DNA of 27,779 nucleotides, taken from a virus. This document shows, piece by piece, positions 41 through 24,500 of this stretch. A program made the translations under genes and the position numbers. Within the stretch, counting starts at the first letter, position 1. Each line of letters begins with the position of its first letter. The notes beneath the pieces are model-generated. The model ran no database searches. It saw only the letters and a program-made list of their open reading frames with translations, and was not told the origin of the DNA. The stretch spans positions 1 to 27,779 of IMG/VR virus record IMGVR_UViG_3300012920_000199. One strand, written 5' to 3'.

Positions 41-259
41 ATGAATCTAATAAGAAAAATTAGTATTGGCAGAGATTATAAAAACGATGCAATGCATTAC
101 TCTATTGGCCAAGAAGTATTTGGAGGGCATAAAATAGTTGAAATTATTGAAGAAGATGAGTGCTATAATATTTATATAGAGAAGGAAGAAGAGGTATTAC
201 CTTGGAAAAACTTTAATAAAAATATGGCAATAGCAGTTGAATATAATTTAGAATATTAA
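41..259 (+). CDS. Small conserved-looking phage protein, unknown function (72 aa)
   Basis: I do not recognise a named family. The protein has a short basic N-terminus (MNLIRKISIGRDYKNDAMHY), then a run of alternating hydrophobic residues (YSIGQEVFGGHKIVEIIEE), an acidic IYIEKEEEVLPW segment and a closing NMAIAVEYNLEY. This pattern suggests a small all-beta fold of four or five strands with no membrane segment or signal peptide. The leader is A-rich (aaagaaaataaag) with no Shine-Dalgarno. The stop overlaps the next start by one base (TAATG), so translation is probably coupled to the co-chaperonin-like gene. A role linked to head assembly or late expression is only a guess from position; it could equally be a moron gene. 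Confidence 0.6.
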   Translation: MNLIRKISIGRDYKNDAMHYSIGQEVFGGHKIVEIIEEDECYNIYIEKEEEVLPWKNFNKNMAIAVEYNLEY

Positions 260-852
260 TGAAGCATCTTCATTGTTATATTATATCTCCGGTAAACGGT
301 GTGTATAGCAATAAAAAACTAGTTGAAAAAAAAGAATTAATTTTAAATACCTCAATAGAAGATCATAAATTTGTAAATAGAATAGGTAAAATAATTGAAA
401 CGCCAATTAACAATCCTATTTTAAAAGTAAATGATGAAGTAATTGTTCATCATAATATTTTTAGAAGATTTTATGGTATGAATGGTATAGATAAATACGG
501 TTCAAGTTTTTTTCAAGAAAATAAATATTTTTGTTATATAGATCAAATATTTTTATATAAGAGAAATAATGAATGGAAAACAATAGAAGGTTTTAGTTTT
601 GTAAAACCTGTTTTTAATCAGAATAAATTTGATGAGCGTAAAGAAAAGCCTCTTGTAGGTGTTTTAAAGCACGTTTCGCCACGTTTAAGAAGCTTAAATC
701 TTAAAAAAGATGATTTAGTAGGCTTTACAGAAAACAGTGAATATGAATTTGTTTTTGATAATGAAAGACTATATAGAGTTCCTGATAATTCAATAGCAAT
801 AAACTATGGAACACAAAAAAATGAAATTGAATATAATCCAAGCTGGTTATAA
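259..852 (+). CDS. Tandem GroES-like co-chaperonin (two GroES folds, 197 aa)
   Basis: Two successive stretches match the GroES pattern. Domain 1 (about 17-101) has a mobile-loop-like segment with the hydrophobic triplet LIL (27-29), then a glycine turn (GKIIETP, 43-49), the barrel strand LKVNDEVIVHHN (55-66) and a closing FCYIDQIFLYKR (91-102), analogous to GroES 'VKVGDIVIF' and 'SESDILAIVE'. Domain 2 (about 112-183) repeats this: FSFVKPV, GVLKHVSP, LKKDDLVGF, EYEFVFDNERLYRVPDNSIA. Domain 2 has a shorter loop without an obvious hydrophobic triplet. Phage co-chaperonins such as T4 gp31 replace GroES so that GroEL can fold capsid protein. Position next to packaging and head genes suits this. 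Each domain is near the usual GroES length (about 95 aa). The fold call is by eye; function is inferred. Confidence 0.65.
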   Translation: MKHLHCYIISPVNGVYSNKKLVEKKELILNTSIEDHKFVNRIGKIIETPINNPILKVNDEVIVHHNIFRRFYGMNGIDKYGSSFFQENKYFCYIDQIFLYKRNNEWKTIEGFSFVKPVFNQNKFDERKEKPLVGVLKHVSPRLRSLNLKKDDLVGFTENSEYEFVFDNERLYRVPDNSIAINYGTQKNEIEYNPSWL

Positions 853-1078
853 AGCAGTAGATGAGTTAATAAAAGTAGCAGAAGAAAAAATTATTTTAAA
901 TGATCCTAACGAGGATTTAGCTGCAGATAGATTAAAAAACGCAGCAGCTACAAAAAAATTAGCAATATTTGATGCTTTTGAAATATTAACTAGACTTGAA
1001 AGTGAAAAAAATGTTATAGATGTTTCTGATAAAGTAAAAAAACCATTTAAAGGTTTTGCTGAAAGAAGATCTAAATAA
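821..1078 (+). CDS. Small helical protein; possible small terminase subunit
   Basis: An 85-aa, mostly helical, charged protein containing AVDELIKVAEEKIIL, a central DLAADRLKNAAATKKLAIFD segment and a basic tail ending GFAERRSK. It lies immediately before the large terminase (5-nt gap), the usual place for a small terminase subunit. I see no clear helix-turn-helix, so the terS assignment rests on position and size only. An ATG at 806 would add five residues (MEHKK). I prefer 821 because it follows an A-rich run (acacaaaaaa), typical of starts here, and shortens the overlap with the preceding gene to 32 nt. It could instead be another small packaging or head accessory protein. Confidence 0.6.
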   Translation: MKLNIIQAGYKAVDELIKVAEEKIILNDPNEDLAADRLKNAAATKKLAIFDAFEILTRLESEKNVIDVSDKVKKPFKGFAERRSK

Positions 1079-1083
1079 ATATA

Positions 1084-3291
1084 ATGTACGATTTAATTAA
1101 ATTAATTAATCCTATTAAATTAAATGTTATAAAAAGATATAACAAAGCAAAAAAATGGGGTTATGGATATAATAAAGAGCATGATATAATTGTTATTAGT
1201 AAAACAGGTGCTATAGGTGATATAATTGAAATACAAAATTTAAAAATAGCTTTACCTCCTGCTCCTAAAAAAATATCTAATACAAATAATAGATGGGAAG
1301 CACATGTATATCCTAAAGAATTAGATCAAATAAAAACAAGATTTCAATGGGATACATATCCTGCTATTTTTAAAAATAAATGGTACGATTATATTGATGA
1401 AGAATTTAACAAAAGAGAAAACGGGTTTTGGTTTATTAACAACAATGTACCCACTTATATTACTGGTACTCACTACATGTATTTGCAGTGGACAAAAATT
1501 GATGTTGGAAAACCAGACTTTCGCGAAGCAAATAGAATATTCTATATATTTTGGGAAGCTTGCAAAGCCGACCAAAGATGTTATGGTTTATGCTACCTTA
1601 AAAACAGAAGATCGGGATTCTCTTTTATGGCAAGTTGTGAAACCGTCAATCAAGCTACAATTACAAAGGATGCACGATTTGGGATACTTTCAAAGTCTGG
1701 AGCAGACGCTAAAAAAATGTTTACAGATAAAGTTGTTCCAATTAGTACCAATTATCCTTTCTTCTTCCGTCCCATTCAAGACGGTATGGACAGACCTAAG
1801 ACAGAGCTTGCTTATAGAGTTCCAGCGTCAAAGCTTACAAAGAATAACCTCAAAGCTTCCGTTGGGTTTGACGATGACATTCCGGAGGGATTGGATACCA
1901 CTATCGACTGGAAAAACACAGGTGACAACTCTTATGATGGTGAAAAGCTTCGTATTTTAGTACACGACGAATCTGGTAAATGGGAAAGACCAGATAACAT
2001 TTTAAATAACTGGAGAGTTACAAAAACAACACTTCGACTTGGAAGTAAGGTTATAGGAAAATGTATGATGGGTTCAACGTCAAACTCATTAGATAAAGGA
2101 GGTGATAATTTTAAAAAACTTTATTATGATTCAGATGTCACAAAACGAAATCGTAATGGCCAGACTAGCTCGGGATTATATAGTTTGTTCATACCTATGG
2201 AATGGAACTACGAAGGATTCATTGATTCTTATGGACATCCTGTATTCGGAACGCCAGAGAAAGAAGTCCTTGGAAACGATGGCGAGCTTATTGACACAGG
2301 TGTAGTTGACTTTTGGAATAATGAAGTTGAAGGATTAAAGCACGATGGAGATGCTTTAAATGAATATTATAGGCAATTTCCAAGAACGGAAGAACATGCT
2401 TTTAGAGATGAAACTAAAAACAGTATATTCAATTTAAGCAAAATTTATGAGCAAATTGATTATAATGATGATTTAATGCGTAAAGGATATATTACGCAAG
2501 GTTCTTTTTCTTGGGAAAATGGAATAAAAGATTCAAAAGTAATGTTTACTCCAAATAAAAACGGTAGATTTTTTATTTCGTGGACACCGCCTAAAAATTT
2601 AGAAAATAATATCATTTTAAAAAATGGTATAAAAACACCAGGTAATGAGCATATAGGTGCATTTGGATGTGACTCATACGATATATCTGGAACAACAGAC
2701 GGACAAGGCTCAAAAGGGGCTTTACACGGATTAACTAAGTTTAGTATGGAAGATGCTCCTGCTAATTCATTCTTTTTAGAATATGTAGCAAGACCTCAAA
2801 CAGCTGAACTGTTTTTTGAAGATGTATTAATGGCTTTAGTTTATTATGGTATGCCTGTACTTGCAGAAAATAATAAACCAAGATTACTATATCATTTAAA
2901 AAGAAGAGGATACAGGGCTTATTCAATGAATAGACCTGATAAAGTTTGGAATAAATTATCTATAACAGAAAAAGAAATAGGTGGTATTCCAAATACGTCG
3001 GAAGACATAAAACAAGCACACGCGGCTGCAATTGAAACGTATATAAATAATCATGTTGGCATTGACGAAAATGGAGGTGGGAACATATATTTTAATAATA
3101 CGCTTAATGATTGGGCTAAGTTTGATATAAATAAAAGAACTAAATTTGATGCAACAATAAGTTCAGGTTTAGCAATTATGGCGTGTAATAGACATTTATA
3201 TCATCCAAAACCTAAATATATGAAACCTAGTTTAGATATTAAAATAGCGAGATTTAATAATAAAGGATCTCATTCAACAATAATAAAATAG
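1084..3291 (+). CDS. terL: Terminase large subunit (packaging ATPase and nuclease)
   Basis: This is the motor that pumps DNA into the prohead through the portal and cuts the concatemer. The ATPase half shows a Walker A-like loop KNRRSGFS (173-180), a variant of the K-x-R-R-x-G form common in phage terminases; a Walker B strand RILVHDESG (290-298) with the acidic pair D295-E296; and a coupling motif CMMGSTS (327-333). The C-terminal RNase H-like nuclease half has candidate acidic residues at D530 (GAFGCD), E595 (LAENN) and D689 (KFDATISSGLA). At 735 aa it is long for a terminase but in the range of crAss-like and marine podovirus relatives. It ends in TAG, the only non-TAA stop here, one base before the portal ATG. 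The ATPase core is noticeably richer in GC than the rest of the gene. Confidence 0.93.
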   Translation: MYDLIKLINPIKLNVIKRYNKAKKWGYGYNKEHDIIVISKTGAIGDIIEIQNLKIALPPAPKKISNTNNRWEAHVYPKELDQIKTRFQWDTYPAIFKNKWYDYIDEEFNKRENGFWFINNNVPTYITGTHYMYLQWTKIDVGKPDFREANRIFYIFWEACKADQRCYGLCYLKNRRSGFSFMASCETVNQATITKDARFGILSKSGADAKKMFTDKVVPISTNYPFFFRPIQDGMDRPKTELAYRVPASKLTKNNLKASVGFDDDIPEGLDTTIDWKNTGDNSYDGEKLRILVHDESGKWERPDNILNNWRVTKTTLRLGSKVIGKCMMGSTSNSLDKGGDNFKKLYYDSDVTKRNRNGQTSSGLYSLFIPMEWNYEGFIDSYGHPVFGTPEKEVLGNDGELIDTGVVDFWNNEVEGLKHDGDALNEYYRQFPRTEEHAFRDETKNSIFNLSKIYEQIDYNDDLMRKGYITQGSFSWENGIKDSKVMFTPNKNGRFFISWTPPKNLENNIILKNGIKTPGNEHIGAFGCDSYDISGTTDGQGSKGALHGLTKFSMEDAPANSFFLEYVARPQTAELFFEDVLMALVYYGMPVLAENNKPRLLYHLKRRGYRAYSMNRPDKVWNKLSITEKEIGGIPNTSEDIKQAHAAAIETYINNHVGIDENGGGNIYFNNTLNDWAKFDINKRTKFDATISSGLAIMACNRHLYHPKPKYMKPSLDIKIARFNNKGSHSTIIK

Positions 3292-3292
3292 C

Positions 3293-5716
3293 ATGGCTGA
3301 AACAATTTTAAAAAGTTCATTTCCTAGTCAAATAGCTTCTGATGAAGAAAAAGCATCTTTTGAATATGGGGAAAAAGTAGCAAAAGCAATTGAACACGAG
3401 TGGTTTAAAAGAGACAATGGTGCTACAAGATTTTATTCCAATAGGGATGAATATCATAGACTTCGTTTATATGCAAGAGGAGAACAATCAGTAAAAAAAT
3501 ATAAAGATGAATTATCTATTAATGGTGATTTGTCTTATTTAAATTTAGATTGGAAACCTGTACCTATTATACCTAAGTTTGTAGATATAGTTGTAAATGG
3601 AATGTCAGATAGATTATTTGATATTAAAGCTTTTTCTCAGGACCCTTCATCTGTAAAAGAAAGAACAGATTATGTTCAAAAAATTATGGATGATATGCAG
3701 ACTAAACAGTTTAATGAAAATGTGCAAGAAAAATTAGGTATAAATTTATTTAATACTGATCCAAATAAATTACCTGCTGATGATCAAGAATTAGCTTTGC
3801 ATATGCAAACAGAATATAAACAAGCTATTGAAATTGCGGAAGAACAAGCTATAAATACTATATTAAATCAAAATAATTATGATTTAACACAAAAAAGAGT
3901 AAATTATGATTTAGTTACGTTAGGTATTGCATCGGTAAAACATGAGTTTAACAAAGCAGAAGGAATCAAAGTTAGATGTGTTGATCCTGCTGATTTAGTA
4001 TATTCATATACTTATTCTCCTTATTTTGATGATATTTATTATATAGGTGAGGTAAAATCAGTAACAATAAATGAAATAGCAAAACAATTTCCTAATTTAG
4101 ACAATGATACTCTTAAAAAAATATCTAGTCAAGGTTATCAAAGTGCATCTTCACATAATAGATATATAAATGAAGATAGCGTATTAGATTCAAATAGTAT
4201 ACAAGTATTATACTTTAATTATAAAACATACAACAATGAAGTTTACAAAATTAAAACAACAGCTACAGGAGCTTCTAAAGCGATTCAAAAAAATGATCAA
4301 TTCAATCCGCCAGAGGATATTGAAAATCTTTTCGAAAAAGCAAGCAGATCAATAGACGTAGTATATGAAGGAGTATATGTATTAGGTGTTAATATGCTTC
4401 TTAAATGGGGTCTTGCAAAAAATATGATTAGACCTAAAAGTGATACAACAAAGGTAATGATGAATTATCATATTGTTGCACCTAGAATATATAAAGGAAG
4501 AATCGAATCATTAGTTAGTAGAATTACAGGATTTGCTGATATGATTCAGTTAACACATTTAAAATTACAACAAGTAATGTCAAGAATGATACCCGATGGT
4601 GTTTATCTTGATGCAGATGGTCTTGCTGAAATAGATTTAGGTAACGGTACAAATTATAATCCGCAAGAAGCATTAAATATGTTTTTTCAAACAGGTTCTG
4701 TTATTGGTAGATCTTTAACACAAGACGGTGATATGAATCCAGCTAAAGTGCCAATACAAGAACTTACATCTAATGGTGGCAATAATAAAATAGCTTCTTT
4801 AATACAAACGTATAATTATTATCTTCAAATGATAAGAGATGTAACCGGATTGAATGAAGCAAGAGATGGCAGTAAGCCTGATCAATACGCTTTACTTGGA
4901 GTACAAAAATTAGCTGCTGCTAATTCAAATACGGCTACGCGACATATATTGCAAGCTAGTTTATATTTAACAGCAAGAGTTGCTGAAGCGGTTAGTTTAA
5001 GAATATCAGATGTTTTAGAATATTCACCAACTAGAGAGGCTTTTATATCTTCAATAGGAAGATTTAATGTTGGTACGTTGGATGATATTAAAAACATGCA
5101 TTTACATGATTTTGGAATATTTATAGAACTTGCACCAGATGAAGAAGAAAAAGCAAGGCTTGAAAATAATATACAAGCAGCTCTTTCAAAAGATCAAATA
5201 TTTTTAGAAGATGCAATTGATATTAGAGAAATTAAAAATATTAAATTAGCTAATCAATTGTTGAAGGTAAGAAGAAAAAAGAAAATGAATGATGATATGC
5301 AACGTCAACAGCAAAATATACAAATGCAAACTGAATCAAATACACAAGCAGCACAAGCTGCAGCACAAGCTGACGTTCAAAAACAACAAGCATTAACTCA
5401 ACAAAAAGCAGAATTAGCTCAAATTGAGTCTGATCTTGAAATACAAAAATTACAACAAGAAAAAGAATTGAAAAAAGAATTAATGTCATATGAATTTCAA
5501 TTAAATATGGCATTAAAAGATAAAGAATCTGAAGTCTATACTAGCAGAGAAAAATTTAAAGAAGATAGGAAAGACGAAAGAACAAGAATTCAAGCTAGCC
5601 AACAGTCTAAATTAATTGAACAAAGAAAAGATAGAAAAGGAGAGCAAGAATTTGAATCCGCTGGTAATGATACAATGGGCAGTGGATTTAATTTAGAGGC
5701 ATTTGAACCTCGTTAA
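3293..5716 (+). CDS. Portal protein
   Basis: An 807-aa protein directly after terminase. The N-terminal part carries segments I associate with portals of marine Bacteroidota and crAss-like phages: LRLYARGEQSVKKYKDELS (57-75) and LDWKPVPIIPKFVDIVVNGM (85-104), followed by the mixed alpha/beta wing and stem region. From about residue 660 it becomes Gln/Ala/Glu/Lys-rich (QRQQQNIQMQ, AAQAAAQAD, LEIQKLQQEKELKKEL) with a long helical or coiled-coil pattern, expected for an extended portal barrel projecting into the capsid. The C-terminus FNLEAFEPR is short and uncharged. It would form the dodecameric ring at one capsid vertex, docking terminase during packaging and the neck proteins afterwards. Confidence 0.9.
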   Translation: MAETILKSSFPSQIASDEEKASFEYGEKVAKAIEHEWFKRDNGATRFYSNRDEYHRLRLYARGEQSVKKYKDELSINGDLSYLNLDWKPVPIIPKFVDIVVNGMSDRLFDIKAFSQDPSSVKERTDYVQKIMDDMQTKQFNENVQEKLGINLFNTDPNKLPADDQELALHMQTEYKQAIEIAEEQAINTILNQNNYDLTQKRVNYDLVTLGIASVKHEFNKAEGIKVRCVDPADLVYSYTYSPYFDDIYYIGEVKSVTINEIAKQFPNLDNDTLKKISSQGYQSASSHNRYINEDSVLDSNSIQVLYFNYKTYNNEVYKIKTTATGASKAIQKNDQFNPPEDIENLFEKASRSIDVVYEGVYVLGVNMLLKWGLAKNMIRPKSDTTKVMMNYHIVAPRIYKGRIESLVSRITGFADMIQLTHLKLQQVMSRMIPDGVYLDADGLAEIDLGNGTNYNPQEALNMFFQTGSVIGRSLTQDGDMNPAKVPIQELTSNGGNNKIASLIQTYNYYLQMIRDVTGLNEARDGSKPDQYALLGVQKLAAANSNTATRHILQASLYLTARVAEAVSLRISDVLEYSPTREAFISSIGRFNVGTLDDIKNMHLHDFGIFIELAPDEEEKARLENNIQAALSKDQIFLEDAIDIREIKNIKLANQLLKVRRKKKMNDDMQRQQQNIQMQTESNTQAAQAAAQADVQKQQALTQQKAELAQIESDLEIQKLQQEKELKKELMSYEFQLNMALKDKESEVYTSREKFKEDRKDERTRIQASQQSKLIEQRKDRKGEQEFESAGNDTMGSGFNLEAFEPR

Positions 5717-7067: not shown

Positions 7068-8549
7068 ATGGGATTATTTAGTACGGGTGGATCGTTTCCC
7101 GCTGGGTTAACGCCTTCACCTACAAAAACGTTGTTTTCGGGCAACTATTTAACATTTGACGCAGGGTCAGGTGGAGGAACATTTGCTCAACAATTTTTAC
7201 CCGATGTATATGAAAAAGAAGTAGAAAGATATGGTAACAGATCCGTTTCTTCTTTCCTTCGTATGGTCGGCGCTGAAATTCCTTCTGCTTCAGATCAAAT
7301 AATTTGGTCAGAACAAGGAAGGTTACATATTGCGTATGATAGTGTTTCTGTAAATACAACATCAGGTGTAGTTACAAAAAACGGTCATGCTGTTAGAGTC
7401 GGACAAACTGTTGTAATTATAGAAGCTGGCTCAACACCTTTTAACCCAGGTAGCGGACAAAGTTCTTGGGATGCTGATAAAGTAGTAAAAGGAGTTGTAT
7501 CTGCTATAAACGCTAATGGTAATTCATTTACTGTATTAGCTTATGGTGGTGCAACACTTACAGCTGCGGGACTTACGTCAGGGTCATCTGTTACATGTAA
7601 AATGTTTGTATATGGTTCTGAATTTCAAAAGGGTACCGCTGGTATGTCTGGATCTATAGATGCAGGGTTTCAACAATTTAGTAATTCGCCTATTATTATC
7701 AAAGATAAATATTCTATCAATGGTTCTGATACTGCGCAAATTGGCTGGGTTGAAGTAACAACTGAAAACGGTGCGTCAGGATATTTATGGTATTTAAAGT
7801 CTGAGCATGAAACAAGACTTAGATTTGAAGACTATCTTGAAACTTCAATGGTTGAAGGTGAACTTGCTGTTTCTGGTTCAGGAGCAATTGGTGCTTCTTT
7901 TAAAGGTACTGAAGGTTTATTTGCTGCTATTGAGTCAAGAGGTAATATTTATCAAAACTTTAATTCTGGAGAAGCTGCCCTTAGTGGTAGTACGACTAGA
8001 TCGTCTTTAGGAGATTTTGATGAAATTCTTAAAAACTTAGATAAGCAGGGTGCTATAGAAGAAAACATGCTTTTCTTAAATAGATCCACTGCACTTGCTT
8101 TTGATGATATGCTTGCAAGTTTAAACCCACATTCAACAGGTGGTGTTAACTTTGGTGTATTTAATAATAGTGAGGATATGGCACTTAATTTAGGATTTAA
8201 TGGTTTTAGAAGAGGTTCTTATGATTTCTATAAAACTGATTGGAAATACTTAAACGATGCTACTACAAGAGGTCTTGGTGGTAATATAGATGGTGTACTT
8301 GTTCCTGCAGGTACTTCAACTGTATATGATCAACAACTTGGTAAAAATATCAAAAGACCATTCTTGCACGTAAGATATAGAGCTTCAGAAGCTGATGATA
8401 GAAAAATGAAATCTTGGATCACTGGATCTGTAGGTGGAGTTTATACTACTGATGTTGATGAAATGAATGTACACTTCTTATCAGAAAGATGTTTGTGTGT
8501 TCAAGGAGCTAATAACTTCGTATTATTTAAGACTGCTACGCAAGCTTAA
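7068..8549 (+). CDS. Major capsid protein (HK97 fold)
   Basis: A 493-aa protein after the scaffold gene. The N-terminus has the signature FLPDVYEKEVERYGNRS (about 43-59) and IIWSEQGRLHIAYDS, which I associate with major capsid proteins of marine Bacteroidota podoviruses and crAss-like phages. Mid-protein there is a beta-rich Gly/Ser/Thr stretch (about 95-185: VRVGQTVVII, VVKGVVSAINANGNSF) that could be an inserted surface domain. The C-terminal half carries helical and strand elements expected of the HK97 A-domain (FDEILKNLDKQGAIEENMLF). No N-terminal delta domain is evident, consistent with a separate scaffold. The gene is followed by a strong hairpin terminator. Its first 200 or so bases are GC-rich relative to the window. 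Confidence 0.9.
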   Translation: MGLFSTGGSFPAGLTPSPTKTLFSGNYLTFDAGSGGGTFAQQFLPDVYEKEVERYGNRSVSSFLRMVGAEIPSASDQIIWSEQGRLHIAYDSVSVNTTSGVVTKNGHAVRVGQTVVIIEAGSTPFNPGSGQSSWDADKVVKGVVSAINANGNSFTVLAYGGATLTAAGLTSGSSVTCKMFVYGSEFQKGTAGMSGSIDAGFQQFSNSPIIIKDKYSINGSDTAQIGWVEVTTENGASGYLWYLKSEHETRLRFEDYLETSMVEGELAVSGSGAIGASFKGTEGLFAAIESRGNIYQNFNSGEAALSGSTTRSSLGDFDEILKNLDKQGAIEENMLFLNRSTALAFDDMLASLNPHSTGGVNFGVFNNSEDMALNLGFNGFRRGSYDFYKTDWKYLNDATTRGLGGNIDGVLVPAGTSTVYDQQLGKNIKRPFLHVRYRASEADDRKMKSWITGSVGGVYTTDVDEMNVHFLSERCLCVQGANNFVLFKTATQA

Positions 8550-11077: not shown

Positions 11078-14000
11078 ATGTCTGAATTAAAGCATACGTT
11101 TACGTCAGGTCGAATGAATAAAGATCTTGACGAAAGACTTATTCCTAATGGAGAATATAGAGACGCTTTAAATATTCAAGTATCTACATCTGAAGGTTCA
11201 GACGTAGGTGCTATTGAAAATGTATTAGGTAATAAACAAATATTTGATTTACAATTAACAAATGCAGCCTGTATAGGTGCTGGTAAAGATTTACTAAATA
11301 AAAAAATATATTGGTTTGTTACAGCTGATGAATTAGATGGTATTTATGAATACGATACATTAAATGATATTGTAGTACCTATATTAATAGATACAAAAAA
11401 TACGAATACTATTACATTAAATGACATTTCATTTTTATCAAACGATGAAGAAGAATTAATACTATCTAATATTTCAAAAAATAATTTATCAAATATAACA
11501 GGTATAAATATTGATGATATACCTTTAATAGAAAATCAAGAAGCTTTAATTTTAAAAAATATTGATATAACCGTATCAAACCCAGCAATTAATATTTCAA
11601 TTCCAAAAAATACAATATTAATGTTGGATAAAAACAATAATTATATATTTAAAAATATTAAGTATACATTAAAAGATTTAGGCAATTTATCCGTAACTTT
11701 TTTACATTCAGATGGTGCTTTATTAAGTTTTTCAAAAAATAATTTTATAAATGGTGTAAATGTATTAGACGGATTATTATTTTTTACAGATAATTTAAAC
11801 GAACCTCGTGTTATAAATATTGAAAAATTTAAGTTTTATTCTAACGAATTATTAGCTTCAGATGGTACAATATTAAAAACGCAAAGCACATCTTTAACAG
11901 ATATTAATAATAATACAAGAGAATTAAACGAATTTGATATTTCATTAGGTGTACAATCGCCACAAACATCCCCTATTTTAACATTAAAAGATACTTTAAG
12001 AGATGGTACTGTTTCTATAGTAATTGATTCTTTTTCTTTTTATAGAAACAATCAATTAGTATTACCTAACAGTGTAGACAGAACAATAAGAGTAACATAT
12101 TCAACTCTTCCTGATTGGAAAATTGGGGATAACATATTATTTGAACCAACTGATGATGATGCAGATTTTAACGCTATATTAGGTATAGAAAGAATATTAT
12201 CTAATATTATTACTTTTTATGTTGTTTCATATTCAGGTACACCTGAAAATAAAAATTATGAAATTGAACAAACTTTAATAGAAGATGAATCTATATATGA
12301 ATTAAAATTTCCAAGATTTGGATATAGATGGAAATATAATGATAATAGATTTTCAACATTTTCTCCTTTTTCAGAAGTAGCATTTTTGCCCGGTGATTTT
12401 AAATATGATGGTAAAAAAGGATTTAATGAAGGTTCAATAAATCAAACAAAAAAAATTATTCTTTCAGATATAAATATTGGGCCTGATACAGTAAAACAAA
12501 TAGATATATTATTAAAATTTGATGATGATAATAATGTATATATATTAGATAACAAAAAAAGAAAAGATATAGTTGATTTAACTTTAGAAATAGAAATTAC
12601 TAAAGAACAAATTAAATCTACTGTTGATAACAAACAACTATTAAGACAATGGGACAATATTCCTAAAAGAGCTAAAAGTCAGGAAATTACAGGAAATAGA
12701 ATTATATATGGTAATTATTTTCAAAATTATGATATATATAATGAACCAAAATTTGAAATTTCTTTAAGAGGTAGAGACAGTGAGTATAAAAGAAGTATTA
12801 AATCAGACAGAAATTATGAAATAGGTGTTGTTTATGTTGATAAATTTAATAGACAAACACCAGTATTAACTAATGACTCAGGTTCTTTTTATGTAAATAA
12901 AGAACAAGCTGTTAGTTACAATGCTTTTAATATAAAATTAACTAATAACCCTCCTGCTTGGGCTACTCATTTTAAATACTTTATTAAAGAAACATCAGCT
13001 GAATATTATAATTTAGCTGCTGATAGATTTTATTTTGATGATGAAAATGGATATGTGTATATTTCTTTTTCTTCGGCAGAAAGAAATAAAGTTACAAAAG
13101 ACACATATTTACTTCTAAAAAAGTTTCATGGTAAAGATGAATTCATTAATACAAGATCTAATAGATATAAAATATTAGATATATTTAATGAGCCACCTGA
13201 ATTTGTGCATGAAAAAATTACTAAAATAGATGTTTTAGGAAATGTATTATTTGCTCAATCATATGGCAGCTCTAATGTGCAAAGTACTAAAACCTCTGGG
13301 TTAACACCTGTAAAAGACAGTATTGCAATACAAATACATTCTGTAAATTCAGATGGGACTCTTGCTAATGCGCCTAGTGGAGATTATGGATTTGATTCTA
13401 TAACTAAAACAAATTTAAAAGTTGGAAAATATGTTAAATTTGAAGTAGGAGGTAAAAGAACAAAAAAATATAGAATTAAATCATTAAGGTATCATATGGA
13501 TGGCCAAGATGAAGCTGAAGTAAAATTTGAAACACCTTTTGGTGATGATGTAGATATTTTATATGAATCTACAGATGCTCCTAAAGCTAATATAAATATG
13601 GAAATTTATGAAGATCAAGCTTTTGCAGGAGATCCTGAATTTAATGGAAGATTTTTTATTAAATTAGAAACAGACGGTACGCTAAAACAAGCTGTAGCTG
13701 AAAATGAAACATTAGATGATAATATTGAATATTATTCTTATGCTAGTGCTTTATTTGATGGAATAGATAGAAATAAAGATAATTTTACAAGTAATGGAAC
13801 TGGAAAAGGTGGGCCCAAACATACACCAATATTTGTAAATGGAGGAGGACGTGAAGGAGCTGATGTTACACCATATGATAAGTTTGCAGATGGAACTAAA
13901 GCAAGTATAGTTTTTGAACAAACAGGGCCAACAGATGATACTTTTTTCTTAAATGCTTTAAGTATAGGTGATAGATTGCGTTTTTCAAATCAAGATACAA

Positions 14001-17000
14001 TATATAGAATAGGTAGAATACAAAAAGAAACTGCTAAATTTAGATGTAGTAGAAGAAATGGTCAAAAAGTTTTACAAGTAAGATTATTATTTCAAAATGA
14101 GGATGACACAAGACAAAGAATAACTAAAACTATATGTGAATTTGATACAGAATTAAACCAAAATAATAGAATTACTGTTGAGTTATTAAAGCCTTTAGAC
14201 GATGAAAAAAGTAATTTTACAACAAACCCTGCTATTTTTGAAACTGAACCTATAAGACAAAAAACAGATTTAGATATTTATTTTGAAACAGAAAAAGCAT
14301 TTTTAATATCGGAGCATGGTAATATTAATAAATTAGATTGGTATAATTGTTTTAGTTTTACTAATGGTGTTGAATCTAATAGAATTAGAGATGATTTTAA
14401 TGCTCCTTTCATAAAAAACGGTGTAAAAGCTTCAACAGTTTTAGAGGAGGGCTATCAAGAAGAGCATAAATTTAATGGTGTAATTTTTTCAGGTATTGTA
14501 AATTCTAAATCTTCAGTTAATAATTCTAATCAGTTTTTACAAGCAGAAACAATAACAAAAGATTTTTTACCTTCATATGGAAGAATTCAAAAACTTCACT
14601 CATGGGATGATAGTTTAGTTGTTTTTTTAGAAAATAAAATTTTAAGAACTCCTGCAAATAAATCAGCTTTGTTTAATGCTGACGGCTCTACAAATTTAAT
14701 ATCAAGTTCTAATGTTATAGGAAATCCTATTGAATATAATGGTGAATATGGAATATCAAATGATCCTCAATCTTTTGCTGTTTTTGGATTTAGATGTTAT
14801 TTTGTTGATCGTAAAAATGGAAAAGTATTTAGACTATCTAAAGATGGATTAACACCTATTTCAGATGTTAATATGGGGGACTTTTTTAGTGATAGATTAG
14901 AAACAACTCAAACTATTTTTGGTTCATTTGATGAAGATAATCAATTATATAATTTGTCTTTTGAAACCGATGCAGATACAGTGTGTTTTTCAGAAGCAAT
15001 AAATGGTTGGCCAACTAGAAAATCTTTTGTTCCTGAATTTGCTGTTTCTATAAATAGTAAGTATTATACTTTTAATAATGGTAATTTATGGCATCATGGC
15101 AATTCTGGTGCTATTAGAAATAATTTTTATGGAGTACAAAGTTTTTCACAAGTACAATTAGAAATTAATGATGATCCTTCTACTGTTAAAAAATTTAAAA
15201 CTTTAGTTTATGAGGGTACAAAAGGATGGACGGCAGATATAAAAACAGATTTAGAAAATTCTAATGATATATCTTTTAAAAGAAAAGAAAATAAATATTT
15301 TGCAAATATTTCAGGAGAAACAAAAACAGCATTAAATTTAGATTTAAAAAAGTTTAATTTTCAAGGTATAGGTAGACCAGCAAGTATTGATACTATAGTA
15401 GATAATAGACCTAATACAACATATAATTTTTCTATTTCAACAACACTAAATATAAATTCAAGTACAGTTGCTTTACCTAATAATAAACCAGGTGAACTTA
15501 TTACAAAAAGCACAGTTAATTTAATATTAAGTCCTAAAACAAATAATTTTAAATTATTAGCCTCTGATTTTTCAGGAACAAATTGCACTTTTACACAAAG
15601 TGGTGATAATGTAAAAATTACATATACTCATGGGTTTAATTTTTATCCTGCAACAACAACTAATATTCAAATACCAATTACTGGGGGAAGGTTAATAAAA
15701 AAAGATGTTACTTTAACTGGCTCTTATACTGTAGCTTTAAGTGGTTGTATTGATAATTTAGGTAATAACACATATTCAATTACAGGGCAACCGGGGCAAA
15801 TTGTAAATATTGTAAATAGACAAATAACAGCAAATCAAGGATTTAAAATTTTAAAAACAGCTGTTACCATCGATAATCCTTCTATATTTAATAATTCAAA
15901 TATATTACAAGATCCTAATGTTGAAGATATAGTTGATATACAAGAAAAAACTGTTTTACCTCAATTTGATGAGTCAAATAGAAATTATATTATAACAGCT
16001 ACAGCAGAGCAGCTTGTTATACCAAATGCAATAATTGTAAGTAAAAAAGTTACTGATAATACTTTAACTTTATTAAATAAAAGTGAATTTAAAACCGTTT
16101 TAGTAAAAGGAGAAAAAAATGCAGAGTTTGTTTATGAATTTAAAAGAGCTGGCACCTTATTAACTACGCAAACAATTATTATAAATGATTCTGAAGAATT
16201 TGAAATTCCATTAGAATTTGACGATACCGATTATACTGTAGCAAGAACATATACATTAACATTTAGAGTTGGAAATAAAACAGAATTTGGTACTAATTTT
16301 GGAGCTACTATAATAACATTTACAAGATCAGCAGTTGCAAATAATAAAATTAATTTAAAAATTGTACATGATGATATTTCTACCTCTCCTAAGTTTGCTG
16401 ATAATGAATACTCTATATTTACTCGTAGTTCTGCAATAAGAAGTGATTCTTTACAATTAACTTTAAATTCTTCTTATGCATATCAAATTATTAGAAATGC
16501 AATTTTTCCTGATGATTTTGATGGAGATACCGATAATCCTAATCCATTAGATACTCAAAGAATAGACAATGTAACTTTTCCTAAATTTAACATAAGTGTT
16601 GGTACAACAAATTCAACGGATCACATTGTTACAATAGATTATAAAATTTCTATGATTAATATTTTTGGTGGTAGAAATATATTATTAGATTTAAATAAAT
16701 TTGTGAATAGATTAGTAACATTAACAATTAATTATAGTGATTCTCAAAACACTCATGATACCGGTAGTAATGATGATTATACTACTGCAATTACAGGTAG
16801 TACAACAATACAAGGAATAGCTGGTTCAGATGCTACATCAACTACTCAAACAGATATTAAAATAACAACAACTAGTGGAAAACAATTAATAAGTGGATTA
16901 GGATTAGATGAATTCCAATTATTTGATGGTTCAACTAATGTTACTAATACATATGAAACAGACGGTAAACTTCAATTTCAAACTGCAGCAAAAGGAACTA

Positions 17001-18751
17001 TAGCTATAATAAGATTATTGTTAGGCAATTTTACGTTTCCAAATGTAAATAAAACATTAACAGTTAAACCAACACAAGATATTATAGAAGCCGCGGCAAC
17101 TGTAAATGATTATCAATTATCTATAGAATCAATACATGGCTATCCCGTTATCGCTCCTTCTGAAGGAGCAAGTTTAGATGAATTAAGATTAATTCAAGGT
17201 TTTGATAATGGTTTTCGTGCAGTAAAAATGTTATCATGGCCTAGATCTAACACAGATGCTAGACCAATTGGTAGTAAAATGACAAATAAAATTACAGAAA
17301 TTTCTTCTGTGTCTGGAACTAAAAGATTAGTACAATTTACATATACTATTAATAGATTTAAAGATACAGCTACTCAATATGGGCCAAATAGAAGTAATAG
17401 TGGAATTAATTCTCCTGCCGGACTTGCAAGAATATCTAAATTTGCAAATGCATCTACATATTCTTCTAATTACAGAATAAAAGATATGTCAGGAAATGGA
17501 GAGTTTGAGCTTGCTGCAGCGGGAAGTTATACACCTGCCGGTGGTGGATCGGCTGTTACTGTTGCTGGGCCTGTTGTTCTTAGTAATAATAATTTAACTG
17601 CAACTATAAATATATTAATTAATATACATACAGTTACATCAAACTCATTAACTTCTGGAAGAGCAAGACTTCAATTTGCAATAGATCATAAAGAAGATAT
17701 GAAAACAAAAGGAACTCATATTAAAAGCTCTAAAAATGAAGCTTGTAAAGATGCTAATGATAATAATACTATATTAATATATAACAGCGACGCAACTAGC
17801 ACGGAAGTTAAACTAGGTGCTTGGACTCCTATTATTACAGGAAATAGTAGAGCTTATACAGCTTCTAATCGCTATGGGTTTGATCAATATATTAAAGATA
17901 AAATTAATGATAAAGTATATAAAGTAGGAGGTATTTATGTAGATGGAGTAAAAGAAATATTAGATGCATGTGTAGACGCTAAAGCTGTTCCCCCTAGATT
18001 TCTTCAAGAAATAGTTTTATTTGCATCAAATACAACAGTACAAGATGGAAGAACAGCTAGACCTCAATTTAAACCAATTATAGGTTCAGTTGCACTTGCA
18101 AATAATACAATACCTATATTTAATAATTCTGGAGGAGTACCTAATGATACATATTATAGATTACAAAAAATATATGCAACTCAGGAAGTTTATAAAAACT
18201 ATGATGATATACTTAAAAATAAATACCCATTTATTTTTGATAGATTTCGTCATTTTTCATTTAGTTTAGTTCCAGGAGGAGTTACAAGGTTTGTTTCTAT
18301 AGCGTTTCATGTTGTAGGTAATGGAGTATTAAGTATATTTCAAAAAATGTATGGAATATATTTTAAAGTTACTTCAAGAAGTAGTCAATATTTTAATCTT
18401 TTAAAACCAGACGGTCCTTTTCCAAGATTTATAAATATGAAAGCTAAAGATGCAGGATTTGATTATTATAAATTACAATATGAAATTAAAGTAAATAACT
18501 CTCAAAATATTATTTTAATAATAAAAGATGTTCCTTATGTTCCTGGTTCTGGTTCAAATGGTTCAATTGAATTTATAGCTCTTCCAAATGCTTTTATAGG
18601 TTTAGCATCTAAAACACGATTTACAATGAACGCTTTAATAGATTCAGCTAATTCTCAAAAGCATGATATAACGAAAATAAAAAACTTTATAGGATGTACT
18701 GCATCTGGATCAAGAACTACAGTAGTAGGACCTCATTTTGGACCTCAATAA
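11078..18751 (+). CDS. Giant tail hub / 'stabilization' protein (2557 aa)
   Basis: The N-terminus is diagnostic to me: GRMNKDLDERLIPNGEYRDA (11-30) followed by LNIQVSTSEGSDVGAIENVL (31-50) matches the 'stabilization protein' of crAss-like and marine Bacteroidota phages. Repeated strand pairs such as KKIYWFVTADELDGIYEYD (about 75) and VLDGLLFFTDNLNEPRVINI (about 225) suggest a propeller-like hub, as in T7 gp12. The region about 1170-1400 (SWDDSLVVFLENKILRTP, FGFRCYFVDRKNGKVFRLS, KTLVYEGTKGWTADI) looks like the end of this core. From about 1440 to 2557 the sequence is Thr/Asn/Ser-rich and beta-rich with Ig-like texture and no repeats obvious by eye. No separate tail fibre gene is seen here, so this arm may contact the host. 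Hub role likely; receptor role inferred. Confidence 0.8.
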   Translation: MSELKHTFTSGRMNKDLDERLIPNGEYRDALNIQVSTSEGSDVGAIENVLGNKQIFDLQLTNAACIGAGKDLLNKKIYWFVTADELDGIYEYDTLNDIVVPILIDTKNTNTITLNDISFLSNDEEELILSNISKNNLSNITGINIDDIPLIENQEALILKNIDITVSNPAINISIPKNTILMLDKNNNYIFKNIKYTLKDLGNLSVTFLHSDGALLSFSKNNFINGVNVLDGLLFFTDNLNEPRVINIEKFKFYSNELLASDGTILKTQSTSLTDINNNTRELNEFDISLGVQSPQTSPILTLKDTLRDGTVSIVIDSFSFYRNNQLVLPNSVDRTIRVTYSTLPDWKIGDNILFEPTDDDADFNAILGIERILSNIITFYVVSYSGTPENKNYEIEQTLIEDESIYELKFPRFGYRWKYNDNRFSTFSPFSEVAFLPGDFKYDGKKGFNEGSINQTKKIILSDINIGPDTVKQIDILLKFDDDNNVYILDNKKRKDIVDLTLEIEITKEQIKSTVDNKQLLRQWDNIPKRAKSQEITGNRIIYGNYFQNYDIYNEPKFEISLRGRDSEYKRSIKSDRNYEIGVVYVDKFNRQTPVLTNDSGSFYVNKEQAVSYNAFNIKLTNNPPAWATHFKYFIKETSAEYYNLAADRFYFDDENGYVYISFSSAERNKVTKDTYLLLKKFHGKDEFINTRSNRYKILDIFNEPPEFVHEKITKIDVLGNVLFAQSYGSSNVQSTKTSGLTPVKDSIAIQIHSVNSDGTLANAPSGDYGFDSITKTNLKVGKYVKFEVGGKRTKKYRIKSLRYHMDGQDEAEVKFETPFGDDVDILYESTDAPKANINMEIYEDQAFAGDPEFNGRFFIKLETDGTLKQAVAENETLDDNIEYYSYASALFDGIDRNKDNFTSNGTGKGGPKHTPIFVNGGGREGADVTPYDKFADGTKASIVFEQTGPTDDTFFLNALSIGDRLRFSNQDTIYRIGRIQKETAKFRCSRRNGQKVLQVRLLFQNEDDTRQRITKTICEFDTELNQNNRITVELLKPLDDEKSNFTTNPAIFETEPIRQKTDLDIYFETEKAFLISEHGNINKLDWYNCFSFTNGVESNRIRDDFNAPFIKNGVKASTVLEEGYQEEHKFNGVIFSGIVNSKSSVNNSNQFLQAETITKDFLPSYGRIQKLHSWDDSLVVFLENKILRTPANKSALFNADGSTNLISSSNVIGNPIEYNGEYGISNDPQSFAVFGFRCYFVDRKNGKVFRLSKDGLTPISDVNMGDFFSDRLETTQTIFGSFDEDNQLYNLSFETDADTVCFSEAINGWPTRKSFVPEFAVSINSKYYTFNNGNLWHHGNSGAIRNNFYGVQSFSQVQLEINDDPSTVKKFKTLVYEGTKGWTADIKTDLENSNDISFKRKENKYFANISGETKTALNLDLKKFNFQGIGRPASIDTIVDNRPNTTYNFSISTTLNINSSTVALPNNKPGELITKSTVNLILSPKTNNFKLLASDFSGTNCTFTQSGDNVKITYTHGFNFYPATTTNIQIPITGGRLIKKDVTLTGSYTVALSGCIDNLGNNTYSITGQPGQIVNIVNRQITANQGFKILKTAVTIDNPSIFNNSNILQDPNVEDIVDIQEKTVLPQFDESNRNYIITATAEQLVIPNAIIVSKKVTDNTLTLLNKSEFKTVLVKGEKNAEFVYEFKRAGTLLTTQTIIINDSEEFEIPLEFDDTDYTVARTYTLTFRVGNKTEFGTNFGATIITFTRSAVANNKINLKIVHDDISTSPKFADNEYSIFTRSSAIRSDSLQLTLNSSYAYQIIRNAIFPDDFDGDTDNPNPLDTQRIDNVTFPKFNISVGTTNSTDHIVTIDYKISMINIFGGRNILLDLNKFVNRLVTLTINYSDSQNTHDTGSNDDYTTAITGSTTIQGIAGSDATSTTQTDIKITTTSGKQLISGLGLDEFQLFDGSTNVTNTYETDGKLQFQTAAKGTIAIIRLLLGNFTFPNVNKTLTVKPTQDIIEAAATVNDYQLSIESIHGYPVIAPSEGASLDELRLIQGFDNGFRAVKMLSWPRSNTDARPIGSKMTNKITEISSVSGTKRLVQFTYTINRFKDTATQYGPNRSNSGINSPAGLARISKFANASTYSSNYRIKDMSGNGEFELAAAGSYTPAGGGSAVTVAGPVVLSNNNLTATINILINIHTVTSNSLTSGRARLQFAIDHKEDMKTKGTHIKSSKNEACKDANDNNTILIYNSDATSTEVKLGAWTPIITGNSRAYTASNRYGFDQYIKDKINDKVYKVGGIYVDGVKEILDACVDAKAVPPRFLQEIVLFASNTTVQDGRTARPQFKPIIGSVALANNTIPIFNNSGGVPNDTYYRLQKIYATQEVYKNYDDILKNKYPFIFDRFRHFSFSLVPGGVTRFVSIAFHVVGNGVLSIFQKMYGIYFKVTSRSSQYFNLLKPDGPFPRFINMKAKDAGFDYYKLQYEIKVNNSQNIILIIKDVPYVPGSGSNGSIEFIALPNAFIGLASKTRFTMNALIDSANSQKHDITKIKNFIGCTASGSRTTVVGPHFGPQ

Positions 18752-21550: not shown

Positions 21551-24500
21551 ATGCCAGATTACGAAGTTATTATAGACGATCAAAAGAAAACATTTCGGGT
21601 ATCTAATAATAATAGAGAAAAATTTTTATTACAATATCCAGATGCTAAGCTTGCTCCCCCGCCTCTTGATTTGGCTAATAAGCTTAAACAGCTTTCTTAT
21701 TTTCAAAACAATTACTTTGAAGATAGGATGGAAGCATTCAAAGATAAATATTATAATAGAGATGACGAGGGTAAAATTATAGATTATAAAGAAGAAACGA
21801 CTAGAGATCTTACTTTTTTAGAAGCATTAAAAGAAGCTAGTAAACGGGTATTTTTGGGTGGTGTTATATTTGGAGGAATGCCTCCAGATAAAGTTGATAA
21901 AGAAACCGGAGAACCTATAGAAAGACTTAAACCATATGATTTTGGAGAAGGTGCTGCTGCTGCTTTTATTGAGGCACCGTTAAGACAACTTGAAAGATTT
22001 TCTGTATTAGATAATCAAATTAATGCTGCGGTTGGAATGTTACTTGGCAATAAAGATATTGTAGAGCCTAACTTATTTAAAATGCAGGCTTCAGAAGAAA
22101 GAAGTGCTAAATTAGTTGAAAAAGGATTTACTGATGTAACAGAAGCTAAAACATTTCAAGAAGGAGGAGAAAGTATTATTTCAGGGGCTCTTAATAGTTT
22201 AGCTTCTTTTGGTGGCTCTGCTATAGAAATGATGGGAGGAAGAACCCCTGCAGGTATATTATTAATGGGTGCAGATATGATTTCTAAATCTATTATAGAT
22301 TATAATCAACAAAAAGCAGCCTCGCAAGGTAAATCTATTGAACAATTAATAGACGAAAAAGATATTGATTATATTGAACCTTTTTCATATGGATTAGCAG
22401 GTACCAGTTTAGAATATATTGGCTTTAAAGGTGCTACAAGAAAAATTATGGAAATGGCGCCTAGTATTCAAAAAAGAATATTTAATGCTGCATGGGCATC
22501 AACTGGTGAAGGTAGTACAGAATATACACAAGGTGCATTAGAAGCTATAAATGCACAGGTTGCACTTGATAAATCTAAAACAGATTTTGATAGATTAAAT
22601 TCAATGACCAAAGCATTGGAAGAATATTATTCATCAAAAGATGCTCTTGAACAATTTTTTCAAGGAGCGTTTGGCGGTGGAGCTATAAATATAATGCGTA
22701 ATACAAGTGCTCAAGATCTTCAATATGCATATGCTTTAGTTGGCAACACAAGAACCCAAGAAGAAATTGCTAGGTTAGAAAAAAATATTAATGCTCTTGC
22801 AAAAGCTAGGGCAAAATTAGCTGTAACAAAAGATCCAACAGTTGCTGAAGGTATAAGAAAAAGAATTGAAAAATTAGAAAATAAAATAAAATTTGGGATT
22901 ACTCAAAAAAATGGTATTTTATTTACTGCAGAAAAAGAAGATTACGATCAAGTAAAAACGATGAGCCAATTGGCTGCGCTACAGGTTAAAAAAGTTAATG
23001 AGTTAAGAGAAAAAATTGACAATGGTGAAATTACTGATTCTGAATATAACGAAGCCATTGAAGGATACAAGGAAGCCTTTTTAAGCGCTAAAAAAAATAT
23101 ATTAGGTGTAGCGGGTAAAGTTGCTGCTAAATCAAATAAACAAGCTGCAGAGGTAAATAAAATATATGAAGAAGAAATTGCTAATGAAACTGATAAAGAA
23201 AAAATAAAACAAGCTGAAGGCAAAATACTTGAAAAATATAGATCAATGGCAGCTAGAATTGCTTCAAAAAGAAAAAATGCACCTGGCTTTGATTTAGATA
23301 TATTAACAAATGAAATATTATCAGGTAAAAGAGGTGTAATAGATCTTTTAAGAAATTATAAAAAATACGTTACAAAAGCACAAAAAGAAAACAAACCGGT
23401 TGCACCTTTATCAGGATTTATAAATAATATGATTGGAGTAAGGGCAATTGAAGCTTCAAATAGAGTATTGAAAAAAGATTTTGATGAGTTAGCTGAAAAT
23501 GTTACAAAAAAATTAGCAGGAAAAACTGCAGAACAACAGATTGAAAATATAGAAAAAATAACTGATAAATTAAATCTTGACGAAAAAGTTAGGAAAAAAA
23601 TTGTTGAATCTGCTAAAAAAATATTAGGTACTAAATTACCACAGCTTGCAAATAAAAGAGCTATAAAGTCTGAAATTGTTAAAGCATTAAGAGATGATTT
23701 GTTTAAAACATTTAAAACAGATGTATTTAAAGTTGATCTTAGTTATAAAGAATTTTTATCTGATAATTTTGAAAATATATTTAAAAGTATTCCACAAGCT
23801 ACTCTTAATAAAAGATTTTCACAGTTATTTACACAAAAAGTATTAGACGAACAAGGTAAAGCTGTAAGAGAAAAAACACCTGAAGGAAAATTTGTTTATA
23901 AAAGACCTCCTATTACTAAAGAACAATGGATTGATTATTTTACTAAACAACCCAAAGCAATGTCAGGTGATTCTTGGGGGAAAACAAAATCTTCTAGAAA
24001 AGGTGCTTTAGCTCAAGTATTGGCAGATGAATTAGGATTAGATCAAATTGTTCAAGCTATAGCTGATCCAGAAATTGCAAAAAGATTTAAAGAAGTACAA
24101 GAATTACAAGGTGAAAAATTAGAACCTGGTTTTGCAACTAGATTAATACAAGCAATTGATAGATCCATAGAAGAGTTAGATAAATTTCAAAGAGAAAATT
24201 TATTATCTGATGCAGGTGTAACTACTGCTGTAAAATTAATGCTTAAAGGCGTTAAAAAATTAGTAGAAGCTGGAACTCCTTTAATTGATGCTATAGATAA
24301 AGCTATAAGCGATTTAAAACAAGGTAAATTTGAAGATGTTAATCAATATGAAGTTGACGAATTAGCAAATACTTTTACAAAACATAAAGAACTAATTACT
24401 GAGTTTGTAAATGAAAAAAATCGTAAGAAAGCACAAAAAGCTTTAGCTAAACTAATTGAAAAATATAAAAATGCGATTGAAACTCAAGGAATAATTGAAA

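Follow-up and report, generated by a model that had tools for sequence, protein, structure and literature searches.

The window, that is, the whole 27.8-kb stretch of DNA analysed here, comes from a marine Bacteroidota phage and begins 258 bases before a gene for a GroES-like protein, the ATG-started open reading frame at 259-852 (plus strand), for which the ORF list and the translation give 197 residues and 23.4 kDa. The question raised by this locus is which chaperonin such a protein would close, and how a subunit that appears to consist of two GroES domains could be fitted to a ring of seven-fold symmetry. A first-pass annotation of the same DNA had read the product as two fused GroES folds with a docking loop in the first only, capping the GroEL of the host in place of GroES.

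The tandem gene, its family and its neighbours

The genes around the tandem gene are arranged as follows.

41-259, plus strand: 72-aa ORF, a conserved neighbour; its stop overlaps the tandem ATG (TAATG)
259-852, plus strand: tandem GroES-like co-chaperonin gene (ORF and translation, PHROG 13932, 171 relatives, dN/dS)
806-1078, plus strand: 90-aa conserved ORF, overlapping the tandem 3' end and preceding TerL
1084-3291, plus strand: terminase large subunit (phrog_6681, E 1e-167)
3293-5716, plus strand: portal protein (phrog_6547, E 1e-159)
7068-8549, plus strand: virion structural protein, 52.7 kDa (phrog_13704, E 6.9e-102)

The protein belongs to PHROG 13932 ('co-chaperonin GroES'), which it matches significantly along the whole profile (E 8e-16, residues 1-174, profile positions 1-190 of 200). 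Pfam Cpn10 (PF00166) recognises only domain 2 (residues 126-179) with 13.4 bits, short of its gathering cut-off of 21.1 bits, and gives 24.1 bits on domain 2 of the phi40:1 homologue. At least 587 relatives were found after a scan of IMG/VR, and relatives of about 30-36% identity to the window protein occur on 77 phage records, among them Elemovirus Flavobacterium phages, Cellulophaga phages phi38:1, phi40:1 and Calle, and one Maribacter phage; the phi18:3 tandem protein is also present in BFVD as S0A356 (TMq 0.76). For the analyses below we collected 171 related tandem proteins, and an alignment of 82 sequences was used for AlphaFold2 (AF2) and for the definition of invariant columns. The closest long relative (L076, on record G027) carries a tandem protein 92% identical to that of the window, with dS 0.20 and dN 0.03 (dN/dS about 0.16), substitution rates from which the gene is judged to be under purifying selection.

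Ten matches were obtained from bacterial and archaeal assemblies, all in MAG contigs, and we take them to be phage contigs because the longer ones are about 50-65 kb and share the neighbouring genes. Two relatives come from bins assigned to Alphaproteobacteria and Archaea (L170 in a MAG labelled Maricaulis, L171 in one labelled Euryarchaeota); they are probably Bacteroidota phage contigs binned there, the alternative being a wider range of hosts. The suggestion that the protein may define a family of viral co-chaperonins thus holds as to its wide distribution but not as to its novelty, since RefSeq and depositors already name the gene 'chaperonin cpn10' or 'co-chaperonin GroES' in related phages, and 'chaperonin cpn10' is listed among the core genes of Pervagoviridae (PMC8776804).

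The gene order (72-aa ORF, tandem gene, 90-aa ORF, terminase, portal and then structural genes) agrees with the position in a packaging or head block noted earlier. The other phages of PHROG 13932 (Pervagoviridae phi38:1, phi40:1 and Calle; Elemovirus) carry whole-length relatives of about 30-35% identity, and in all phages examined the tandem gene lies directly before terminase and portal. The clade of the window differs from these other phages by the additional 90-aa ORF before TerL and by a C-terminal EYNPSW tail on the tandem protein. The TAATG overlap with the 72-aa ORF is found in 136 of the 157 relatives examined, and this overlap of stop and start codons suggests translational coupling. 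The 72-aa ORF itself (RKISIGxDYKNDAMHYSVGQEVYGGH...) gave no family match. No family match of weight was obtained for the 90-aa ORF (SADRLKNAAATKKLAIFDAFEIL) either; its overlap offsets are identical (-43 or -52) in 123 relatives, and by position it would be a candidate for the small terminase. A reading of the tandem protein as small terminase was dropped, because this separate conserved ORF directly precedes TerL. In the elemo and Calle phages the 90-aa ORF is absent and the terminase that follows is longer (about 875 versus 735 aa). Further downstream, the product of 7068-8549 is likely to be the major capsid protein, as the Calle_1 gene in the same order is annotated structural/major capsid; the virion block also includes two very large ORFs, 11078-18751 (2557 aa) and 21551-27568 (2005 aa).

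Two GroES-like halves with unequal loops

Within the tandem gene the following segments were distinguished.

259-576, plus strand: domain 1, residues 1-106, GroES-like barrel with long loop (AF2 strands from 7-11 to 97-102; 7ekq_R; weak GroES HMM signal)
292-384, plus strand: putative mobile loop of domain 1, residues 12-42 (low AF2 confidence at 21-40; P11-G43 length)
337-345, plus strand: putative chaperonin-binding triplet LIL, residues 27-29 (sequence; relatives; phage GroES triplet at the same place)
448-456, plus strand: HHN motif, residues 64-66 (invariant columns in the 82-sequence alignment; outside the usual GroES pattern)
577-813, plus strand: domain 2, residues 107-185, GroES-like barrel with short loop (hhalign 87%; HMM; 3nx6)
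610-657, plus strand: shortened domain-2 loop, residues 118-133, without hydrophobic triplet (P117-G134 length)

With the alignment as input, AF2 gave a model of the window protein with pLDDT 88.3 and pTM 0.79 (the single sequence yielded a pLDDT of 33.5 only), in which the ten-residue blocks of lowest confidence are those of residues 21-40, in the domain-1 loop. The fold search that had been proposed as a check of the two-fold reading was made against the PDB by Foldseek, and the full-length model matched GroES and gp31 chains, with 7ekq_R first: this chain of 194 aa was aligned along the whole length (TM 0.57, 206 columns, rmsd 5.7 A), and the next matches were single GroES and gp31 chains, with TMq values near 0.25-0.35 and alignments of some 75-107 columns. 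7EKQ is a chloroplast Clp/Cpn structure, and its chain R, which has the size of a tandem GroES, may be CPN20 or CPN23. As the Foldseek probability was 1.00 against many GroES chains, the predicted model has the GroES beta-barrel fold, an assignment that for each half refers to the match of the full-length model. In this model both halves resemble GroES and appear to be placed to each other roughly as in 7ekq_R; given the rmsd of 5.7 A, the arrangement agrees only roughly with that of neighbours in a ring.

By sequence, domain 2 is the more readily recognised half. The GroES HMM gave, for the best family members, 26.3 bits on domain 2 (phi40:1 homologue; reversed-sequence maximum 3.9) and 11.7 bits on domain 1 (reversed maximum 1.7). 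In profile-profile comparison (hhalign), domain 2 matched phage GroES with 81% and host GroES with 87% probability, shuffled columns scoring about half, while domain 1 was not detected (probability 10% or lower). Domain 2 of the phi40:1 homologue also aligns along the solved GroES 3nx6 (E 0.0017), and the single-GroES family PHROG 3188 finds its best stretch in the elemo homologue at residues 14-64 (whole-protein E 3e-4), corresponding to domain 1 with its loop. Thus domain 2 can be recognised as GroES-like from its sequence, and domain 1 resembles GroES chiefly in its fold and weakly in sequence; with this proviso the two GroES folds claimed for the 197 residues are borne out by prediction. 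Searches of the PDB with the sequence of the window protein and with the profile of its family gave nothing relevant and no Cpn20-type chain; a lone weak hit of the profile, an acyltransferase, was regarded as chance. Domain 1 carries, in addition, residues that are invariant or nearly so among the relatives and are not typical of GroES, Y16, N18, R41, H64 and N66, of which H64 and N66, in the HHN motif, are invariant in the 82 diverse relatives; their conservation suggests a further contact.

The two halves differ clearly in the loop. The distance from P11 to G43 in domain 1 is 33 residues in 158 of 171 relatives, and its counterpart in domain 2, from P117 to G134, is 18 residues in 159 of 172. 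A hydrophobic triplet, as expected in the mobile loop of GroES, is present in the domain-1 loop of 166 of the 171 relatives (LIL in 126; the triplet is followed by N in nearly all) and in the domain-2 loop of only 3 of 172; in the window protein it is the LIL at residues 27-29. The segment corresponding to the roof of GroES is short in both domains. The view that the docking loop is confined to the first domain is correct for most of the family, but the Callevirus phages phi40:1 and Calle differ from the clade of the window in that domain 2 has a 28-residue loop of GroES length (VLDNGLRVIEEE), and for this reason the loss of the domain-2 loop is not universal. In these two proteins (L083 and L084; residues 118-145) the loop includes NGLRV and may represent the ancestral state of the family. 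We infer from these sequences that domain 2 descends from a loop-bearing GroES, the loop having been lost in most of the family.

GroEL and single-domain GroES encoded by related phages

Since the window starts so close to the tandem gene, it could not show what lies further upstream, and it encodes no GroEL itself. Among a first set of 20 related records, 18 encode both GroEL (about 520 aa) and a single-domain GroES (83-91 aa), the latter adjoining the GroEL gene or lying very near to it; in a second set both were found on 7 of 13 records. In all the records without this pair the sequence upstream of the tandem gene is shorter than 9 kb, so that the contig would end before the locus is reached; wherever a related record extends at least 10 kb upstream, the pair is encoded, as it is in the complete isolates checked. 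On linear environmental contigs where the distance was measurable, and with the exception of two contigs opened between the pair and the tandem gene, the pair is located 2.7-15.7 kb upstream of the tandem gene, which stands outside the groEL/groES operon; in G027 the distance is 11 kb. With the tandem gene added to this pair, the phages thus possess a set of three chaperonin genes, in which the tandem protein represents a second, additional co-chaperonin. For the phage of the window itself, the presence of GroEL may be presumed from its relatives.

The phage GroELs retain the GDGTT ATP motif and the segments IRKIQSVLEYA and SALIMNK (consensus), which we take, by eye against E. coli GroEL, to be the loop-binding helices H and I. 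Virioplankton chaperonins and viruses with their own chaperonin were reportedly treated by Marine et al. in 2017. Phage-encoded GroELs were found on 263 phage records, and phages phi-EL and OBP bring their own GroEL (PMC5934643) as the tandem-bearing relatives do. The phage GroEL protein of phi38:1 was detected in infected cells (PMC13288928), and GroEL and GroES homologues were both noted for a Maribacter phage (PMC11590407). No mention of a tandem second co-chaperonin was found in open-access papers on phage-encoded GroELs.

The single-domain GroES of these genomes (PHROG 3188, 5725) differs from the tandem protein in that it consists of a single loop-bearing domain (about 85 aa) and is the partner of groEL, but the loop triplets of the two are similar. 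The phage GroES loops read GLILT, GLLLA, GLIIA and the like (LIL/LII/LLL) and domain 1 reads LILN, with the triplet at the same place in the loop; in Callevirus the triplets are MAV (tandem) and MTF (phage GroES). Over 18 pairs, which are related and not independent, co-variation of the two triplets is only suggestive.

These findings bear on the proposal that the protein caps the host GroEL. In its full form, a homo-oligomeric lid of three or four tandem subunits would replace the host GroES and be tuned to the capsid protein. Precedents exist: the host GroEL is capped by a phage-encoded lid, gp31, in the case of T4 (PMC6318259), and homo-oligomers of Cpn20, despite their even number of domains, are functional in vitro together with a heptameric GroEL (PMC5780408). 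The hosts' GroES, however, in the assemblies holding relatives, mostly has the triplet III-P, whereas the tandem LIL-N is like that of phage GroES, and a tandem trimer would offer three loops, below the minimum of four given in PMC4242682 (a tetramer would offer four). The claim in this form is not supported, because the related phages bring a GroEL of their own together with a separate single-domain GroES, which makes the phage GroEL the likelier partner, and we consider a lid on the host GroEL quite improbable.

The presence of an ordinary GroES near the phage GroEL also invites a reading in which the fold of the tandem protein was repurposed for head assembly or packaging and is not a GroEL lid at all, the domain-1 loop and the HHN motif contacting terminase, portal or capsid protein. 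Such a role would suit the fixed site before terminase and portal, the invariant residues of domain 1 beyond the GroES pattern and the weak likeness of this domain to GroES by sequence. What speaks against it is the hydrophobic triplet at the GroES loop position in nearly all relatives, resembling that of the phages' own GroES; besides, the phi40:1 homologue carries no virion MS/MS note, unlike its structural neighbours, which is as expected of an assembly factor and argues mildly against a part of the virion. This reading is unlikely, though less so than capping of the host GroEL.

The tandem protein as a proposed lid subunit for phage GroEL

The explanation that we find best, and to which we lean somewhat, is that the tandem protein contributes its two domains as a co-chaperonin subunit to the GroEL encoded by the phage itself; that it binds this GroEL is, to the same modest degree, probable. 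In its favour are the predicted fold, the co-occurrence with phage GroEL and GroES, the likeness of the loop triplets, the segments retained by the phage GroELs, the detection of the phi38:1 GroEL during infection and the lack of a virion MS note on the phi40:1 homologue. Against it count the placement of the tandem gene away from the groEL/groES pair, the fact that the window fragment has no GroEL, the conserved domain-1 residues atypical of GroES, the failure of profile-profile comparison to detect domain 1 as GroES, and the merely rough agreement with the domain arrangement of 7ekq_R. Domain 1 would dock on the apical domain of GroEL through the LIL loop, and domain 2 would serve as a loop-less spacer in the next position of the ring. 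As a ring made only of tandem subunits has an even number of domains, never seven, co-assembly with the ordinary GroES of the phage would be the most likely way to complete the lid: three tandem subunits and one single subunit would provide seven domains and four docking loops, a stoichiometry in line with the minimum, cited from Nojima 2008 in PMC4242682, of four active GroES subunits out of seven for GroEL binding. A mixed ring of exactly this composition is possible but doubtful.

The nearest known design is found in plastids. Cpn20 of chloroplasts and apicoplasts (CPN20/CPN23) has, as model and profiles indicate for the tandem protein, head-to-tail GroES domains; it provides the best whole-length fold match, and it coexists with single-domain Cpn10 as the tandem protein does with phage GroES. 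Chloroplast Cpn10 and Cpn20 mix into rings of seven GroES domains (PMC5780408), and a CPN11/20/23 heterotetramer on ClpP was observed by cryo-EM (PMC8889267), from which 7ekq_R appears to come. Differing from Cpn20, which has a docking loop in both domains, the phage protein usually lacks the loop in domain 2, and its sequence similarity to Cpn20-type chains in the PDB is undetectable; the phage tandem GroES is probably a fusion independent of Cpn20. The complete scheme, in which three loop-asymmetric tandem subunits and one GroES form a lid of seven domains and four loops that evolved independently of chloroplast Cpn10/Cpn20, is a shade more doubtful than the mixed ring as such.

The origin of the top structural match from a complex in which CPN11/20/23 sit on a protease core raises the thought that the tandem protein may cap another heptameric machine, such as the Clp protease of the host, or inhibit the host chaperonin, and is not a folding lid; inhibition of ClpP activity is indicated by the title of a cited work. 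The same chloroplast proteins, however, also serve as GroEL-type lids, nothing in the tandem sequence singles out ClpP, and a ClpP gene was looked for and not found in 19 related records, so that the target would have to be that of the host. We regard this as very improbable.

For the lid on phage GroEL, T4 gp31 offers a further comparison. Both gp31, in which the loops are longer and the roof is missing (PMC6318259), and the tandem protein combine a phage co-chaperonin fold with a longer loop and a reduced roof relative to GroES; gp31, however, is a single-domain protein that works with the host GroEL, and the tandem protein has two domains and occurs in phages with their own GroEL. Given a longer loop in domain 1 and a short roof segment in both domains, the chamber may be more open and perhaps larger, and large late proteins such as the 52.7-kDa capsid protein could be folded in it. 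The analogy of gp31 and gp23 makes the capsid protein the natural candidate for a substrate, which is proposed here tentatively.

Although the gene was already known as cpn10/GroES, the open-access literature searched yielded no mention of its two-domain architecture, of a loop restricted to one half, or of phages that combine GroEL and GroES with the tandem protein. The number of docking contacts needed by a chaperonin lid has so far been studied with engineered GroES, and the loss of the domain-2 loop would, if the proposed working is true, be a natural experiment on this number; phi38:1 and its Cellulophaga host form a cultured system in which the idea of a mixed lid can be tested. Probably, then, the tandem protein supplements the lid of a folding chamber that the phage itself encodes, in a design otherwise known from chloroplasts. 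If so, phages and chloroplasts would have separately solved the fitting of even-numbered subunits on a seven-fold ring, and widespread phages of Bacteroidota would bring along all the parts of an autonomous folding machine, including lids of two kinds.
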